From positions 1 through 21,949 of the IMG/VR virus record IMGVR_UViG_3300017952_000120: a stretch of DNA of 21,949 bases; one strand, 5' to 3'. Numbering within the stretch: position 1 is the stretch's first letter; each line of letters opens with the position of its first letter. Made by a program: the position numbers and the translations under genes. This document shows positions 5,461-17,024 of the stretch, piece by piece. The stretch is from a virus. Below the pieces are notes generated by a model, which saw only the letters and a list, made by a program, of their open reading frames with translations, was not told where the DNA came from and searched no databases.

Positions 5461-7449
5461 TTAAAATTCCATCACGAATTTAAATTCTTCTCTCGAGTTT
5501 ACGGTTCTTTCCAGTGGGAAGAAATCTTCCATAAAATATACCTTTCCAGTTCTCTGAGCATATGGTGATTCTGTTACATTGTCCTCTACAGGAGTATTTA
5601 TTCTAATTATTTGGCCATTGCTCTTTCTTAAATCCAGTGTAGGATTAAACGGACTATTTGATCCAGAATATGGTGGTCTTGGTCCATTATATATTGCAAT
5701 GTATGCTGTATTGGATTGAAGATCTAATTCATATACAGTTCCCTGGAATACAATATTGTTACCACCACTGTATTGATATACAATTTCATTTTTTTCAAGT
5801 CCACCAATATCATCAGTTACAACTGCTATGGTATTATCAAAAATTTCTGGGCTGTTATTAACACTATACAAATCTGTATTTAATTGCCCACCCATTCCAC
5901 TATGAGCAGTACAATAATAGTGAAGTGTCGGAGCACCTTCTTCTAAAGCAATTTCAACATAAGCTCCGGCGTTACCTGGTGTCCCAACGGTTGTGACCCC
6001 AGTAGTATATTCTGTGCCACCGCCAAACGATCCATTTGGTGTAGTTGAAAATCTAAGTGGATGTGTAGAATTTGACGAATCAGATTGATCAAATCTATAT
6101 GTTCTACCTTCCACAAGTTCTAAGGTTGGGCTCAACTCACCATCTAAATAATATTTATTACCCGTTCCATAGTTATTTTCACCTGACGCAACTGTTACTG
6201 TGTACGTTGTTGTTGTCCCTGCATCCGGGTCAATAAATACTGGATTCTTAACAATGCCGACCTTTGAATATACATTATTAATTCGTATTAAATTATTTTG
6301 AGCAGCCGTAATGTATGAATAAAATAGAAAATGCCTACAGTATAATTCATCAAGCAAATTTGTATTATGGCCATCAGGGGGTGAAAGAACAACTCTAATT
6401 TCAGCTCTTACATCCGTTGTATTTGTACTGTCAGGATCAAAATCATAGATAGGATCTATAACTGTTGCCTCGGCATTATTATAACCAGAACCTACTGATA
6501 ACATATCTACATTTGTAAGTGTTCCATCCACAAATGTTGGCAAAGCAGCTGCACCAGTTCCATCTCCATCAATTTTTATTCTTGGAAAAATTTGGCAGGT
6601 CGCATTACTTCCTAGACCATCAGATCTAGGTCTACCCTGAACTGTAAATCTTCCTGTATTTGTATTATCATCGTACGTATATGCCAAAATCGTGTACAAT
6701 TCAGCAACACCTGGACCGACAGCATATAATGTTTGTCCAACATAATAACCTACTGTCTTACTAAATGGATATAATTCACTAAACGTAACTCTAATATTAC
6801 CTTGTAGTGCACCAGTTGAGCTATCTGTAGGTTGACCAAAGAACGAACCTTGTGCAACACGATAACCAGCATTTGAAATTTCATTTTCTACTGTGATGGT
6901 TGTAATTTCAGAGCCACCTGTATTTGCTACTGGATCTGAATCAAAAGTCCCCACAATTGGAATATAGCCTAGAGCATTATATGCATCAAATTGAATTCTT
7001 GATAAGGCGTACATAAATTTCCATACATAGCCGTCTGCTGTTCTATAAATCTGATCTGAAATTGATGCATCATATTGAGGCGCACTTTTAGATTCAGCAC
7101 CATCGTTATTATCCAAACACTTATAAACTCTGTAATCACCAGTATTGTGATTTGTAGGTCCTACGACGGCATAAAAATTAGAATTTTCTAAATCAATATT
7201 ATCGTCATACTGTTCGTAAACTGAATCCCTTTGCCAAGGATAATACTTAATCATAAATTTTACATCATCATTACGAATCTTTTTTCCAAAAATAACATTT
7301 TCTAAAAAATTATTTTTTGATCTGATTGAATTTTCAGCTGATTCCTGTTCCATCTCAGATACAAAAAGATAATATTCGTTAGACACAATATCATCTACGA
7401 ACAGCCTAGTCGTATCAGTTTTAAAATTGGTTGTCAAAATTTCTGCCAT
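5461..7449 (-). CDS. 8: Baseplate wedge protein gp8-like, with an inserted cupredoxin-like domain
   Basis: A 662-aa protein, about twice the roughly 334 aa of T4 gp8. The N-terminal part resembles marine T4-like gp8: NEYYLFVSE near residue 24, YPWQRDSVY near 70, and RTADGYVWKFMYALS near 136-150. Residues about 415-526 form an extra domain with cupredoxin character: NKYYLDGELSPTLELVEG, then THPLRF with H463, and YYCTAHSGMG with C513, H516 and M519. After it the wedge-like sequence resumes and ends in a typical YFMEDFFPLERTVNSREEF tail. gp8 is a wedge component that in T4 contacts gp6, gp7 and gp10. A T4-type late promoter lies directly upstream. A GGGA run 6 bases before the ATG can serve as ribosome-binding site. 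The family call is firm; copper binding is inferred from ligands only. Confidence 0.85.
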   Translation of the reverse strand: MAEILTTNFKTDTTRLFVDDIVSNEYYLFVSEMEQESAENSIRSKNNFLENVIFGKKIRNDDVKFMIKYYPWQRDSVYEQYDDNIDLENSNFYAVVGPTNHNTGDYRVYKCLDNNDGAESKSAPQYDASISDQIYRTADGYVWKFMYALSRIQFDAYNALGYIPIVGTFDSDPVANTGGSEITTITVENEISNAGYRVAQGSFFGQPTDSSTGALQGNIRVTFSELYPFSKTVGYYVGQTLYAVGPGVAELYTILAYTYDDNTNTGRFTVQGRPRSDGLGSNATCQIFPRIKIDGDGTGAAALPTFVDGTLTNVDMLSVGSGYNNAEATVIDPIYDFDPDSTNTTDVRAEIRVVLSPPDGHNTNLLDELYCRHFLFYSYITAAQNNLIRINNVYSKVGIVKNPVFIDPDAGTTTTYTVTVASGENNYGTGNKYYLDGELSPTLELVEGRTYRFDQSDSSNSTHPLRFSTTPNGSFGGGTEYTTGVTTVGTPGNAGAYVEIALEEGAPTLHYYCTAHSGMGGQLNTDLYSVNNSPEIFDNTIAVVTDDIGGLEKNEIVYQYSGGNNIVFQGTVYELDLQSNTAYIAIYNGPRPPYSGSNSPFNPTLDLRKSNGQIIRINTPVEDNVTESPYAQRTGKVYFMEDFFPLERTVNSREEFKFVMEF
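5872..6207 (-). other. Cupredoxin-like domain with full type-1 copper ligand set inside gp8
   Basis: This is gp8 residues about 415-526. A beta-rich stretch opens with TYTVTVASG, followed by the sequence around H463 (THPLRF) and a terminal loop with C513, H516 and M519. The spacing Cys-x2-His-x2-Met followed by Gly is that of the amicyanin copper loop, and an upstream His about 50 residues earlier fits the fourth ligand. Plastocyanin and pseudoazurin use Cys-x2-His-x4-Met. All four codons were checked on the nucleotide sequence (6061-6063, 5911-5913, 5902-5904, 5893-5895). Whether copper is actually bound, or the fold is used only as a structural or adhesive domain, cannot be told from sequence. 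Confidence 0.65.
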
Positions 7450-7494: not shown

Positions 7495-9243
7495 CTAACC
7501 CCTACGTCTGATTCTGGGTCTAGGATATTTTAATTTTGCGCCGGATCTATAACCAGCCGTTTTATATGGGTACGCTGCACCTGTTTCTTTTCTTTGATTA
7601 ATCCAAAATAAAATTCTATTTTCACCAGATGCCAGGTTGTAATTATCTGTTGGATCCCAATTTACGCCACCAGAATCATCTCGTGCCATTTCATTATTTA
7701 AACCATTATCAATTATCCATTGATTAATATCTGCCTGTGTAAAATTAGGATTATTTTCAAGCAAACAGCCTATCATACCAGTAACTTGTGGGGCAGCCAT
7801 ACTTGTACCTTGATACTTTGCCTGGACGAAATTGCTATCTCTAGGATCATTTACAGACGAGATATAATCACCTGTATTTAATGAACTTTGAATTGCTGTC
7901 CCAGCTGAATAAACATCAACGGCACTTCCGTAGTTACTAAAGCTAGCCTTTTGAAGATTAGCTGAAGTACTCAACGCACCAACGACTGTAGTTGGCTCAA
8001 CATATTGTCCTGAAAAAGCACCTCTTGCGGTATAATCAGATAAACTAAAAAAGCCGCCGAAAAGATATGTAATTTCATTATTCCAATCCTGATCTGTTGG
8101 AACTGCAATAAAGTTATTATCATTACCTGCCGCAAATACAATAATAATTCCATCATCAATGGCATCCTCAATATCTGCCTGAATTGAATTACTGTAATTC
8201 TGTATATAGAAATAATTAATTGAACCGGCTGTTTGTATATCAATATCTCTGTCAATTAATTCCTGATTTGTTAATGTCCTACCTGGGGCAAAAGTACTTC
8301 CTCTATATGTAATTGATGTTGGGAATGGATAATTTCCTACACCATCATCTCGGAAAAGTATTGCCGATCCATAGCTGTTATTTGAAACAGTAGGATTTCT
8401 TCTTCCTGTTACTGGATTAATTGGCTTATTATTATGCCAAGCTCTGACATAATCCCATAATGTAGCAGAACTAAAACCTTGAGTACCCCAGTTAGGATTT
8501 GTTCCATAAGGGCTTATGCAATAGATGTTTGCATCACGAGCCCAACCTTGGGTATTTCCAGCAACTGTTCCTGCACAGTGTGCTCCGTGATTATTGTCAT
8601 CTGTTCGGTCTGGTATGCCATCACCATTATTATCTGCATAACTAGGATCTACATAAGGTGTATAGGTATATGTTCCGGTGCCGTATCCCACATCGTTTTG
8701 AAACCAGTTATATTGAACAACACGAGTACCACCAGTTCCGTCTGCATTAACAGCATATTCTGGGTGAGCTGGGTCCATATGACCATCGACAATAAGAACA
8801 TCTACGTTTTTGCCAGATGCCGTCACAGTAACGGTATCTGTAATTGAAAATGATGAGCCACCGCTTCCCCAGTCATTTACGACAGTATTGGTATTATCTG
8901 TATGCTGTAACAAACCCCAATTTATATCTGTGGTACCGGGCGATCCTCCCTTATCAAAATTACCTGATACAATTTCATAACCCAAAGGAGTAGGAGGAAA
9001 GTCCAGGAATTTTTGTAGCAAATCCACACCTCTTACTCTAGGATCTGCTTTTACTCTCTCAACCTCATCAAACGTTAGCATATAATGTGTATTTCTACTT
9101 ATAGGCCTTCTCGAAGCCAATTCAACTGCGCGGTTTGGAATATACAAATTACCACCTTCGGTTTCCATGTCCTCATAGAAACCTTCAAGATCCTCACGGT
9201 TGTGAAGACTGATAATCCATTCGAGAGGTGTTTCTCTATCCAT
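7495..9243 (-). CDS. Subtilisin-like serine protease (peptidase S8) in the baseplate cluster
   Basis: A 582-aa protein with all the hallmarks of a subtilase. The catalytic Asp is D153 in VLIVDGHMDPAHPE, the His is H219 in NNHGAHCAGTVAG, the Ser is S481 in GTSMAAPQVTG, and the oxyanion-hole Asn is N374 in FAAGNDN. Residues 8-75 resemble an inhibitor-I9-type propeptide in length and position. No signal peptide is seen. The C-terminus is short and basic (RPRIRRRG). A segment around 199-216 (DPSYADNNGDGIPDRTDD) looks like an acidic calcium-binding loop. The gene lies between the fibre-like gene (3-bp gap) and gp8, inside the late structural block; GAGG about 10 bases upstream serves as ribosome-binding site. 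It could process virion proteins, act on the host surface as a virion enzyme, or be released at lysis. Enzyme class is firm; target is unknown. Confidence 0.93.
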   Translation of the reverse strand: MDRETPLEWIISLHNREDLEGFYEDMETEGGNLYIPNRAVELASRRPISRNTHYMLTFDEVERVKADPRVRGVDLLQKFLDFPPTPLGYEIVSGNFDKGGSPGTTDINWGLLQHTDNTNTVVNDWGSGGSSFSITDTVTVTASGKNVDVLIVDGHMDPAHPEYAVNADGTGGTRVVQYNWFQNDVGYGTGTYTYTPYVDPSYADNNGDGIPDRTDDNNHGAHCAGTVAGNTQGWARDANIYCISPYGTNPNWGTQGFSSATLWDYVRAWHNNKPINPVTGRRNPTVSNNSYGSAILFRDDGVGNYPFPTSITYRGSTFAPGRTLTNQELIDRDIDIQTAGSINYFYIQNYSNSIQADIEDAIDDGIIIVFAAGNDNNFIAVPTDQDWNNEITYLFGGFFSLSDYTARGAFSGQYVEPTTVVGALSTSANLQKASFSNYGSAVDVYSAGTAIQSSLNTGDYISSVNDPRDSNFVQAKYQGTSMAAPQVTGMIGCLLENNPNFTQADINQWIIDNGLNNEMARDDSGGVNWDPTDNYNLASGENRILFWINQRKETGAAYPYKTAGYRSGAKLKYPRPRIRRRG

Positions 9244-10450: not shown

Positions 10451-10768
10451 TTATGCCGTTGATGTGTCATTAATTGTAAATGGTCCTGCTGTATGAATAA
10501 CCGGTCCAGCTCCACTTCCGGTATGCAGTGTGATATAGAAGGTTTCTTCCCCTTCAGTTGTAAAATCTGCATCAGCTTGAATTTGGAATGTTCCTGTATT
10601 ATTACTTACCACTACGTTTCCGGAATCAAATGTAAAATCTTCTGGTCTGGAAACTGTCCAATATATAACACCACCAGGATGATTAGTCAAGGTTACAGAA
10701 AAGGTTAGTGAACCACCTTCATTAATACTGGTTCCACCAACCGGAGTAACTGTATATACCGCACCCCC
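10451..10768 (-). other. Calx-beta-like domain at the end of the 878-aa baseplate protein
   Basis: Residues about 774-878 show the Calx-beta pattern: an early N/S-EG-G strand (INEGGSLTFSVTLTN), the DADFTTEGEETFYITL signature with its acidic positions, and a terminal I-x-D strand (FTINDTS). The acidic residues fit the calcium-binding sites of this family. Such domains are common in extracellular adhesion proteins and in phage tail fibres, so this end may project from the particle. Confidence 0.65.
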
Positions 10769-13087
10769 ATTAAGTGCATCCTTATCATTATCAGATGTAA
10801 TTACTGTACTGTCAGAATAAAGATTTGTAATATCAGTTGATATGTTTGCTGGATCTGCAACATCCAATGCAGAACCTCTGCCATCATCGTTGAAGATTCT
10901 TATAAAGCTTTGCTGTAATGCAGAAGTGTTTTTGTATCTATAATAAAATTGACCAAATAATTTAGTACCGGCAAGGTGTACATTTTCTTTTAATAGTTTT
11001 TCATATTGTGATAAAGGTAATGTTGATTTTACCTCATATGAATATTCCTGGAAATAATCACTATCCTGGATTCTCATGTTACCATCAAAATATTCATCAG
11101 TCGCTTCACCAAACGATGTCGACAAATAACCGTTTAGGTGAGATGAAAAATCACCCCAGTATCCAGCGGTAACCCCTTGTGATGAGACATTAATTGTGCC
11201 TCGGATCTGAGGAACCCCGTCTTCGTCAGCAAGATATGCCTCAGCATTATTAACATATCCAAACCCAGAGTTATAAATTTTAACTGCTCTAATTCTACCA
11301 GAAGCAAAATCTGTAGATGGGTCGATTGTAGCATTATCACCAAGATTCTTTGAATTATAATCTACTGATATGTCAATGACATTTACCTGTCCAGGCACAG
11401 CACCTATTACATTTGCACCTGAATACCCATAATAACTATAAGGAAGAATTGTTACGGTACCTTTGTTACCATCAGTTGCCAATACCTTAGCATTTATACC
11501 AGTTCCTACCTCAGCAATAATTTCGCCAATATTAAAATCCGTGGCTGTCTCTGGTGGATCTACGGTTAAAATTTGATTATAACGGTCAAACAATTTCATG
11601 GTATCATCTACAGCATATGCAAAAACATCATTTCTGTAATCTGAACCTGGGTTAATATTTCTAAATCCAACGATAGAACCGATGTCGAAAGGTGTTAAGT
11701 CAAATGCAGCATCAAGTGATGTAGCCAAATTTGCAGATGGTTCTGTTCCAGACATAGCAGCTGCGGCAGGGGGAACAGCATTATAATTAGGTGAGTTTAT
11801 ATAAACTGGACCAGTTGCCAAACCTTCTGGATGATCAACGTCTGGTTCAATAAAATTAGCAATAGGATCTGTTATAAGTGATACAGTTTCTTGATTAATA
11901 AGATCTGAAACTTTTACATCGGTATTTAAACCAGTATCAACAAACATTGGCCCAGGAGATGATTCATTGATAGGAGTAATTACAACAATAGGCGATGCTT
12001 GTGATCCCAAATTTACGATATTTAAATTAGGATTCCTATCTACAGTTGATATGTTTCTGTTAATTTCAAATTCGTCACCCGGATCCATAAGGACACCCAC
12101 GGATCCATCATTTTGCCCAATTACGGTACCGAAGTTATTGTCTGTATCTCTAAGTCTTTCGCCTTCAATAAAAACCCTTTCGGAATTTTCCAAAACGATG
12201 GACTGATTTGAAACTACCAGTCTTGTATTTTCTATAGAATAACCAAAGCCGCCATCTTCAATCTCATATGTAACTTGACCAGTAGGATTATTTGTGATCT
12301 CTGTAACAATTGCTCTACCGGATTGTCCGCCAGCACTTACAACATCAAAGATGTTACCTTTTTTATTTCCGGTAGTACCACCAGATGTTACGTCTACTGT
12401 AAAGTCACTTAATGAACCTTTAACAACACCAAACCGAACTATATTTTCGCCGATTCTAGTTAAAAGTTCATCATATTTTGTAAAGACACCTTGAACAGCG
12501 TCCAAATAAATGATAGGTGTTAATGTTTTATTAATAAGAACTGAATTTATTGAATTTACAGCTGCCTTTGCGCCAGAAATAGATCCAGTAATATTTCTAC
12601 CTATTAAATCAGCATACGTGAAAGTATTCCCATCTATATCATCGAACGAATTATTATTTTCTTCCATCTCCAAAAAGACACCAGTTTGCCATTTTGCATT
12701 AGACGGCTTGAGCATTTGTGATGCTGGATAATATATCTCAATAGATTCATTATAGAATAATCTAAAAAATAAAATAATACCGTCTTTGGTACCTTTACGA
12801 TGATATAAATCTTGGATATGGCGAACAATAAATTTTACAGTAGTTTCATCGAACGGTAGATCTTTTAAAAATTTATTTTTAAAGTATATAAGCATACTGT
12901 TTAAAGTTGTGCTTATATCTCTATATTCAAAAATTCTTCTGCCGATGTAGTGGGACTGTTTAATGTCCTCTTCCATAAAGCGATAATATTCTTCTACGAT
13001 CTTTACTAATTCAGGGCCAGCTTCCCGGTAAATACCAGGGAATTGGTTTTCAATAAAAAACGCAATATTCTTTTCTGTTTCCCTCAT
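10451..13087 (-). CDS. Baseplate structural protein in gp7 position, C-terminal Calx-beta-like domain
   Basis: An 878-aa protein between gp6 and the fibre/gp8 genes, where T4 places gp7 (about 1032 aa). The first 140 residues are helical and charged (FIENQFPGIYREAGPELVKI, YHRKGTKDGIILFFRLFYN) and look like an assembly domain. The middle is beta-rich, with GGFGYSIENTRLVV (279-292) and NSGFGYVNNAEAYL (606-619) repeats. Residues 674-713 contain DSDYFQEYSYEVKS followed by LAGTKLFGQF, a block I associate with phage baseplate proteins. Residues about 774-875 end the protein with a Calx-beta-like domain (SINEGGSLTFSVTLTN, TEGEETFYITL, FTINDTS). Some cyanophage homologues at this position are annotated VrlC-like; I recall this but cannot verify it. 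Equivalence to gp7 is inferred from position only. Confidence 0.72.
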   Translation of the reverse strand: MRETEKNIAFFIENQFPGIYREAGPELVKIVEEYYRFMEEDIKQSHYIGRRIFEYRDISTTLNSMLIYFKNKFLKDLPFDETTVKFIVRHIQDLYHRKGTKDGIILFFRLFYNESIEIYYPASQMLKPSNAKWQTGVFLEMEENNNSFDDIDGNTFTYADLIGRNITGSISGAKAAVNSINSVLINKTLTPIIYLDAVQGVFTKYDELLTRIGENIVRFGVVKGSLSDFTVDVTSGGTTGNKKGNIFDVVSAGGQSGRAIVTEITNNPTGQVTYEIEDGGFGYSIENTRLVVSNQSIVLENSERVFIEGERLRDTDNNFGTVIGQNDGSVGVLMDPGDEFEINRNISTVDRNPNLNIVNLGSQASPIVVITPINESSPGPMFVDTGLNTDVKVSDLINQETVSLITDPIANFIEPDVDHPEGLATGPVYINSPNYNAVPPAAAAMSGTEPSANLATSLDAAFDLTPFDIGSIVGFRNINPGSDYRNDVFAYAVDDTMKLFDRYNQILTVDPPETATDFNIGEIIAEVGTGINAKVLATDGNKGTVTILPYSYYGYSGANVIGAVPGQVNVIDISVDYNSKNLGDNATIDPSTDFASGRIRAVKIYNSGFGYVNNAEAYLADEDGVPQIRGTINVSSQGVTAGYWGDFSSHLNGYLSTSFGEATDEYFDGNMRIQDSDYFQEYSYEVKSTLPLSQYEKLLKENVHLAGTKLFGQFYYRYKNTSALQQSFIRIFNDDGRGSALDVADPANISTDITNLYSDSTVITSDNDKDALNGGAVYTVTPVGGTSINEGGSLTFSVTLTNHPGGVIYWTVSRPEDFTFDSGNVVVSNNTGTFQIQADADFTTEGEETFYITLHTGSGAGPVIHTAGPFTINDTSTA

Positions 13088-15401: not shown

Positions 15402-17024
15402 CTAAACAAATCCTTGCCAATGAGGTGCCGGTTCTATATGAATATGATTTCTATATCCACCTATTACCTCATAGTCGTAAAGTTTTACTAAATCTCTAAT
15501 TAGTTGTATGTCATTACTATTTAGGTTCTTTGTAGCTATATCAAAAGCCATACCAGAGGTATGAAAAGAACCTTCTACACCACCAACACGCTTATTATAT
15601 TGTGTACTTCTCCAAGCACTATTAATCTGGAATGGTTTTCCGATTACAGCTTGGATATTCATTATATCAATTATAAATTCCTCTTCCATATTGTACCATG
15701 CTGCCTGGCCGTCGCCAAAATCCTTGCCTTTATTATAAAAGGTAAAGACAGAACTTCCACCAGAGGAAACTGTTTCCCAATCTGGAATTTTTTCATACTC
15801 AAATGCTCTCTTCGGCGGTCTGTTTTTAGGTGGCTTTCCGCTAGGAGTTGGGAGATTGGTATCTTGTTCTACTCCATTGAGAGCATCATCAATACCTTTA
15901 CTCCAATTTGGCCATGCTTCATCAGCCTTCTGTTTTCTGAGTTGTCTGTCATATCTTTTTCCACCATTTATAATAGCCTTACCAGTAGCAACATCAGAAA
16001 CTCTTCTCAATCTATTTACCACATTTTGATATTTTAATGCAAAATTTTGAGTTGGTTTTCTAATATCATATATTAATGCTTCGACATTTGAAAGTAATGC
16101 ACAAAATCTTAAAATCAAATATTGAATTTCCTCGAGTGAAGGTAGTTCAAAAATACTAACGGCATAATCTAAAAGTGCTTCAACCTTTTCCGTCATTCTC
16201 TCACAATTATCTTCACTTAATAGAGCCAAAGATCTTTGTCTAATTTGCTTGCCTTTTTTAGCAACCTGAGGATTTACATGTGAATCAGTATCATTAATAA
16301 GATTTACAACATTAAGATTTAAAATTGCATTTTTTGACCGTAGCCATGCTTGACAGATAATGTCCTTAATTTTTTCCTTCATTGTTCTTATTAAAGCTTC
16401 AGCTGAAGCCTTTTTGGCGGCATCAGAAAATAGTTGGCCACTTTTAAATTTATTAATAAATGATATTGCGTCAGCAATAAAGCCTTGAATCAGGTCGACC
16501 AAATCAAAAAATGCATCAATAGCACCAAAAACATTTTGAATTGTTCTACAGAAACCACCTAATATACTACTAGAAAATGTATTTTGATAATACGCATCAA
16601 ATTCAAAATTAATTTTATCAATATCGTTTGCTAGTGTAGCATCAAATACAGACAAATTATAATTATATTCTCCCAGAAAATCAGAAAATTCTAATATTCC
16701 TATTTGACCTCTAGTTATTCTGTCGTTTAACGTAGGAAATCCAGCTAGGTTTGTTTGTTTAAATATTTGGTTTGCGTTATTTAATGAGGTATATATTTCT
16801 TGGCCATAAAAATTTACAGCCTTTGTAATAGGATTTTCCTCGGCTTCTTCAAGATAACTTGAAATAAAATCTGCACCCAACTGATCGATTTTATTGATAT
16901 TAAATGAGCCGTCAGCATTTGTGGTAGATACTGATGACGATAACCTTGCTTTATTCAAAGCGGCTTTATCAACAAGACACTGACCATCAAGTGTTCTGGT
17001 AAATGATAAACAATCCGAACTCAT
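15402..17024 (-). CDS. Baseplate-associated protein with C-terminal M15-type peptidase domain
   Basis: A 540-aa protein. Residues 1-340 are mostly helical, with hydrophobic helices around 155-195 (VFGAIDAFFDLVDLIQGFIA), and are not recognised. A basic, Pro-rich linker (LPTPSGKPPKNRPPKRAF) follows near 391-408. Residues about 440-540 form a peptidase M15 (Peptidase_M15_3-like) domain: INSAWRSTQYNKRVGGVEGS, H488 in SFHTSGMAFDIA with D495, and the H527-x-H529 pair in RNHIHIEP. These are the zinc-ligand pattern of D-Ala-type or endolysin peptidases. It probably cuts peptidoglycan peptides. Placed between gp5 and gp25, it is likely a tail or baseplate component; a separate endolysin role is the alternative. 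The AAGGAGG site (17030-17036) is very strong, 5 bases from ATG. Confidence 0.85.
   Translation of the reverse strand: MSSDCLSFTRTLDGQCLVDKAALNKARLSSSVSTTNADGSFNINKIDQLGADFISSYLEEAEENPITKAVNFYGQEIYTSLNNANQIFKQTNLAGFPTLNDRITRGQIGILEFSDFLGEYNYNLSVFDATLANDIDKINFEFDAYYQNTFSSSILGGFCRTIQNVFGAIDAFFDLVDLIQGFIADAISFINKFKSGQLFSDAAKKASAEALIRTMKEKIKDIICQAWLRSKNAILNLNVVNLINDTDSHVNPQVAKKGKQIRQRSLALLSEDNCERMTEKVEALLDYAVSIFELPSLEEIQYLILRFCALLSNVEALIYDIRKPTQNFALKYQNVVNRLRRVSDVATGKAIINGGKRYDRQLRKQKADEAWPNWSKGIDDALNGVEQDTNLPTPSGKPPKNRPPKRAFEYEKIPDWETVSSGGSSVFTFYNKGKDFGDGQAAWYNMEEEFIIDIMNIQAVIGKPFQINSAWRSTQYNKRVGGVEGSFHTSGMAFDIATKNLNSNDIQLIRDLVKLYDYEVIGGYRNHIHIEPAPHWQGFV

Follow-up and report, generated by a model that had tools for sequence, protein, structure and literature searches.

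The baseplate wedge protein gp8 of the virus analyzed here contains an inserted domain of predicted cupredoxin fold. In our main reading this insert is a mobile cupredoxin module with a probable copper site that acts as a surface clamp, and we give that reading a probability of about 0.6. Comparison shows that the module is mobile among the tail and fibre genes of marine phages; the metal and the role are inferred. The DNA studied is a 21.9-kb virus record (IMG/VR IMGVR_UViG_3300017952_000120, 21,949 nucleotides), referred to here in its full length as the window. The features discussed are listed below, where A1 is a 57-row alignment of the domain family and fractions are counts in a set of 29 non-redundant copies.

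5461..7449, minus strand: gp8, T4-type baseplate wedge protein, 662 aa (PHROG 438 and T4 gp8 fold match)
5854..6207, minus strand: inserted stretch, gp8 residues 415-532, without counterpart in other gp8s (homologue alignment)
5872..6213, minus strand: predicted cupredoxin-fold domain proper, gp8 residues 413-526 (AlphaFold2 and PDB fold matches)
6061..6063, minus strand: H463, predicted first His ligand, codon CAT (invariant in A1; 28/29)
5911..5913, minus strand: C513, predicted Cys ligand, codon TGT (invariant in A1; 28/29)
5902..5904, minus strand: H516, predicted second His ligand, codon CAT (invariant in A1; 28/29)
5893..5895, minus strand: M519, predicted axial Met ligand, codon ATG (invariant in A1; 29/29)

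The insertion in gp8 and its predicted fold

The assignment to gp8 rests on family and fold. PHROG 438 spans gp8 residues 1-662 (E 6.2e-47), supporting family membership over the full length, and a model of the whole protein found its best match in T4 gp8 (1n7z_A; Z 14.2, rmsd 4.4, 217 residues aligned across the whole length) and also matched 9f4a (Z 12.8), in support of a gp8 fold. This model was weak beyond residue 514, in the last quarter (mean pLDDT 69.7). A sequence-only profile matched T4 gp8 only at the C-terminus, where the last 32 residues aligned, and the T4 residue corresponding to the insertion point could not be fixed. The neighbours of gp8 are T4-type tail genes, including gp25, gp6, gp5 and a gp9/10-type protein. 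Between gp8 and the gp9/10-type gene lies a subtilase-family (Peptidase S8) protein (window 7495-9243, minus strand), which stops before the cupredoxin domain that its PHROG 9158 relatives have at the C-terminus. Elsewhere in the window, a 540-aa tail-region protein (15402-17024, minus strand) has a Peptidase M15 domain at its end, and a wedge-like protein (10451-13087, minus strand) has an extra C-terminal 110 residues with a putative Calx-beta-like repeat, proposed from reading alone.

Homologues of gp8 were collected by scanning viral contigs with gp8 residues 1-404, and 80 loci were fetched. The domain was missing in all 69 full-length homologues (a second contig of the same virus excluded), which ranged from 523 to 628 aa and were mostly about 550 aa. 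In the alignment, the insert columns were filled in fewer than 30% of these 69 sequences, and the extra residues of the window gp8 formed one clean insertion between 'KNPVFIDPD' and 'SPEIFDN', at a loop of variable length flanked by conserved 'KNP-F' and 'FDN'. The second contig (L082), a non-identical IMG/VR record, contains the whole gene including the insert and aligns over 10,191 bases without a gap and with 16 mismatches; the insertion thus belongs to the virus itself and is not peculiar to a single assembly. T4 gp8 has 334 aa, and the insert accounts for about 118 of the 328 extra residues in the window gp8. Three gp8 proteins of other phages (L157, L158 and L159) reach 628 aa owing to a different insertion near residue 270, so gp8 loops tolerate more than one kind of insert.

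An AlphaFold2 model of the domain, built with a 57-sequence alignment, predicted nine strands from about residue 413 to 526 (mean pLDDT 90.0, pTM 0.85), with mean pLDDT of 92-97 in the ten-residue blocks holding the four ligands. The model predicts a cupredoxin fold, a Greek-key beta sandwich. The top solved structures found by Foldseek were nearly all copper nitrite reductases, rusticyanins and multicopper oxidases. Scores from VIA-align were moderate, at Z 9.8 (rmsd 2.5, 100 residues) against the N-terminal domain of Hyphomicrobium nitrite reductase (2dv6) and Z 8.8 (rmsd 3.2, 107 residues) against rusticyanin, and the match list was uniform in fold. Without recourse to the structure, a search of PDB sequences with the family profile A1 recovered copper nitrite reductase at E 1.2e-5 and rusticyanins at about 1e-3, and its alignment placed H463 on the rusticyanin His and C513, H516 and M519 on its Cys, His and Met, the rusticyanin ligands. 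Distant family members matched the NCBIfam rusticyanin model (best 3e-8).

The family profile was needed for these sequence matches, as the window domain alone gave no cupredoxin match among PDB sequences or Pfam. No match to Pfam PF00127 Copper-bind (plastocyanin/azurin) was found for it at E 1, and 8 of the 57 relatives matched that model weakly (best 0.0013). Nor did the window domain match any NCBIfam model, including plastocyanin and amicyanin TIGR02657, the latter being matched by 5 of the 57 relatives (best 0.0018). Since TIGR02657 was not matched, the window domain is amicyanin-like in spacing only.

An earlier note on this DNA had proposed that the baseplate wedge protein gp8 carries a cupredoxin-like domain at about residues 415-526 (5872-6207), and this held on the evidence of PHROG 438, the T4 gp8 fold, the AlphaFold2 domain model and profile A1, with the extra stretch proving slightly longer (415-532, 5854-6207). 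Its statements that T4 gp8 lacks the domain and that the domain explains part of the twofold length difference also held, the share being the one given above. It had asked for structure prediction and named a fold other than a cupredoxin as grounds for refutation; the predicted fold was a cupredoxin. The claimed amicyanin-type Cys-x2-His-x2-Met spacing was confirmed, as spacing and nothing more.

Spread of the module and conservation of its ligands

Relatives of the domain are encoded in at least 597 stretches of the viral collection. A tblastn search matched 50 phage records, mainly of cyanophages but also of Pelagibacter and Methylophilales phages. The domain sits at the very C-terminus in 68 of 80 complete carriers, seven of the 80 having tandem copies. 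A frequent type of carrier starts with a PHROG 28581-like domain, and further hosts are gp10-like wedge/fibre connectors (PHROG 677), PHROG 9158 subtilase proteins, long tail fibres and podovirus tail-fibre proteins; the domain occurs in PHROGs 30742, 693, 677 and 9158. Named carriers include a structural protein of S-TIM5, a tail fibre of P-SSM2 and tail fibres of the Pelagibacter phages Baldr and HTVC028P. S-TIM5, Baldr, HTVC028P and Methylophilales phage Melnitz are isolated carriers, and the idea is therefore testable. A P-HM1 protein (L174) and the MED4-213 protein M4QD42 are annotated with an immunoglobulin domain, yet have this cupredoxin domain by sequence or fold, and the label may be wrong.

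Comparison across carriers shows that the gp8 location is a rare exception, the module usually sitting in tail-fibre-like and wedge/connector proteins. The same module is inserted internally in a PHROG 2941 head/neck protein, which is unrelated to gp8 (L011:3692-4702, L066, L077:3149-4189 and L039), and gp8 is therefore not the sole virion protein to receive it by insertion. In the tree, a gp10-like/subtilase-linked clade was separated from a tail-fibre clade (100/99). The gp8 copy fell in the tail-fibre clade, its finer placement unresolved, and so came from outside the local baseplate genes. Local duplication from the neighbouring baseplate genes was considered as a source and is rejected on this branching.

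Relatives of the domain were also found in marine bacteria and archaea, many with signal peptides or lipobox-like 'TACGGG' starts. Many of them look exported and several resemble exported lipoproteins, as inferred only from their sequences. These cellular loci were recruited by the Cys/His/Met pattern and were excluded from the evidence on conservation. Phage-type tail-fibre genes with the domain were seen on SAR11 single-cell contigs (L187, L189, L193-L195 and L199), which may represent prophages or infecting phages.

In the window domain the His, Cys, His and axial Met ligands are all present in order, as checked in the codons, and C-x2-H-x2-M occurs once in the ten translated window proteins versus 0.0036 times expected from composition. 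In A1 no columns are invariant other than G448, H463, P464, G484, Y511, C513, H516 and M519. Ligand counts from the first scan were not used as main evidence because one search peptide contained the Cys and His; replacement samples were recruited via gp8, by plain tblastn or with the part of the domain before the first ligand. The 29-copy set comprises copies lying beside gp8 in other phages or found by plain tblastn of phage records, reduced at 80% identity. Mean pairwise identity in this set was 34% (minimum 14%), all four ligands were present in 28 of the 29 copies, and the ligand columns were among the six most conserved. When copies were recruited with the half before the first ligand, 61 of 63 tail-fibre-group copies and all 34 complete copies of the gp10-like group had the full His-Cys-His-Met set, one more being cut by the contig end.

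The exceptions, including those recruited by the ligand-free PSS2 protein, read NST-M, FNT-M, DAT-M, AAT-M and YAP- at the four positions, with no partial His/Cys/His set among them. His, Cys and His were lost together and Met was often retained, so M519 by itself is weak evidence. Second copies of the domain in five cyanophage structural proteins appear to lack the whole Cys-His-Met loop. PSS2_gp080 (L176:3992-4327), annotated in PSS2 as a baseplate wedge subunit, and its relatives L378-L381 are stand-alone, ligand-free domains in which His, Cys and His are all replaced. The all-or-none loss of His, Cys and His is a strong argument for a real metal site, and we conclude that a type-1 ligand set of His, Cys, His and Met is under joint constraint, whereas metal binding and convergence of the four ligands in space are inferred. 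Recent spread of the module could account for part of the strong ligand conservation.

What the site may do

Our main reading begins from what comparison shows, namely a cupredoxin module circulating among marine phage tail and fibre genes and inserted in a gp8 loop. The module is predicted to fold as a Greek-key beta sandwich and retains the His-Cys-His-Met site, whose residues and conservation are shown. By inference, the site would most likely bind one copper ion. Free copper is scarce in the reducing cytoplasm of the host, where virions are assembled; the module would therefore probably be synthesized without metal, or with a metal other than copper, and be loaded once the virion is released into seawater or reaches the host surface. 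The least certain step is that the metal would fasten the strand bearing His463 to the C-terminal loop that supplies Cys, His and Met, so stiffening an exposed baseplate module that serves decoration or adhesion; such a clamp would not depend on electron transfer. The clamp or adhesion role rests on the location of the domain only, without binding data, and that the insert is exposed on the virion is itself an inference, given the poor full-length gp8 model after residue 514. It also counts against the copper reading that zinc or other metals can occupy a Cys-His-His-Met site.

A trivial explanation would be that a chimeric contig joined the domain to gp8. In its favour, the insert is unique to this virus among the gp8 homologues found. 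However, the frame is open, the sequence to either side of the insert matches that of other gp8s, and contig L082 carries the whole gene without a gap; on the strength of that contig we reject chimeric assembly as the source of the insert, and an artefact is all but excluded. A more serious competitor is that the domain has the cupredoxin fold but that its site in the virion is empty or occupied by zinc, with the residues retained for fold stability alone. Copper is scarce in the cytoplasm, in which virion assembly takes place, and cupredoxins made in the cytoplasm of E. coli can take zinc. Ligand-free copies with undisrupted reading frames moreover exist, PSS2 gp080 among them. Against this, His, Cys and His are lost jointly and never singly, which points to a metal site and not to three separate packing residues. 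This alternative remains possible.

Two further proposals give the metal an active role, and we regard both as unlikely. The virion copper could be a working redox centre that, during adsorption, senses the envelope or periplasm of the host or passes electrons to and from it. The complete type-1 ligand set is retained, as in electron-transfer cupredoxins, and the module is found in fibre and wedge proteins; however, there is no known partner or electron path, many carriers are fibres located away from all known redox partners, and to our knowledge there is no precedent for one-electron centres fixed in a baseplate. Alternatively, the virion metal could bait host copper-uptake proteins, or the module could strip copper from the cell surface. 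A parallel exists in marine phages, whose tail fibres have been proposed to hold iron in HxH motifs and to act as a 'Trojan horse' (PMC11705849), and the module lies mostly at protein C-termini, with the lipoprotein-like cellular relatives described above. Nevertheless, there is no evidence for host copper uptake via a receptor that accepts a cupredoxin, and the cited work covers iron only, its single mention of 'copper' being a microscope grid. We therefore retain the surface clamp with a probable copper site as the preferred reading. A bolder version, in which many marine phage tails carry true blue-copper centres that are loaded from the environment and used at host contact, by redox action, copper-dependent adhesion or passing for a copper carrier, is possible.

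The remaining claims of the earlier note can be judged against these results. The complete ligand set of H463, C513, H516 and M519 held, with codons CAT, TGT, CAT and ATG, as did the suggestion that similar sequences may be widespread in marine phage proteins, by tblastn and in the viral collection. The argument that retained ligands indicate real metal binding is supported by their joint conservation and loss, although copper as the metal is not shown, and none of the proposed roles (stability, redox sensing at the host surface, copper scavenging) is shown. Routine loss of Cys or His among homologues, which would have refuted the idea, was not observed; the gp8 homologues themselves lack the domain. 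New beyond that note are the rarity of the gp8 insertion site, the wide tail-protein family and the all-or-none ligand loss.

Intact ligands across hundreds of marine phage tail proteins point to a probable part for copper, or for another soft metal, in how virions function or stay stable; we found no paper on this in the open-access literature searched. Many 'hypothetical' and 'tail fibre' proteins gain a testable domain identity, and some 'immunoglobulin domain' labels are called into question. The findings suggest a counterpart, with copper, of the iron-carrying virions that have been proposed and, if the bolder reading is true, copper would be a virion cofactor in the ocean.

Comparison with known systems

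Our search of the open-access literature found no paper on cupredoxin or plastocyanin-like domains in phage virions. The closest relatives in fold are the type-1 copper cupredoxins (rusticyanin, amicyanin, plastocyanin and the N-terminal domain of three-domain copper nitrite reductase), which have the same predicted fold and the same four ligand types in the same order; with amicyanin the window domain also has the C-x2-H-x2-M loop in common (C513-x2-H516-x2-M519). Blue copper proteins of this kind serve in photosynthesis and respiration and are exported electron carriers, whereas the window domain is part of a virion protein and its metal site is only predicted. Metal-binding residues in phage tail parts, as predicted for the window domain, have been described for the T4 gp37 tip and the tail fibres of Alteromonas phage R22Y, as iron-binding HxH motifs (PMC11705849). 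There, however, the iron is octahedral and held on His pairs, without a cupredoxin fold, Cys or Met.

T4 gp8 belongs to the same family as the window gp8 by PHROG and fold and likewise lies in a baseplate gene cluster, but it is only 334 aa long and lacks the domain, whereas the window protein has the 118-residue insert and other enlargements. The nearest counterpart of the insert is the domain in marine phage tail proteins (S-TIM5, P-SSM2, Baldr and HTVC028P), which is the same domain at 42-65% identity (tblastn) with the same ligand set, but is usually found in a fibre-like protein, often at the C-terminus, or in a wedge/fibre connector, and not in gp8.
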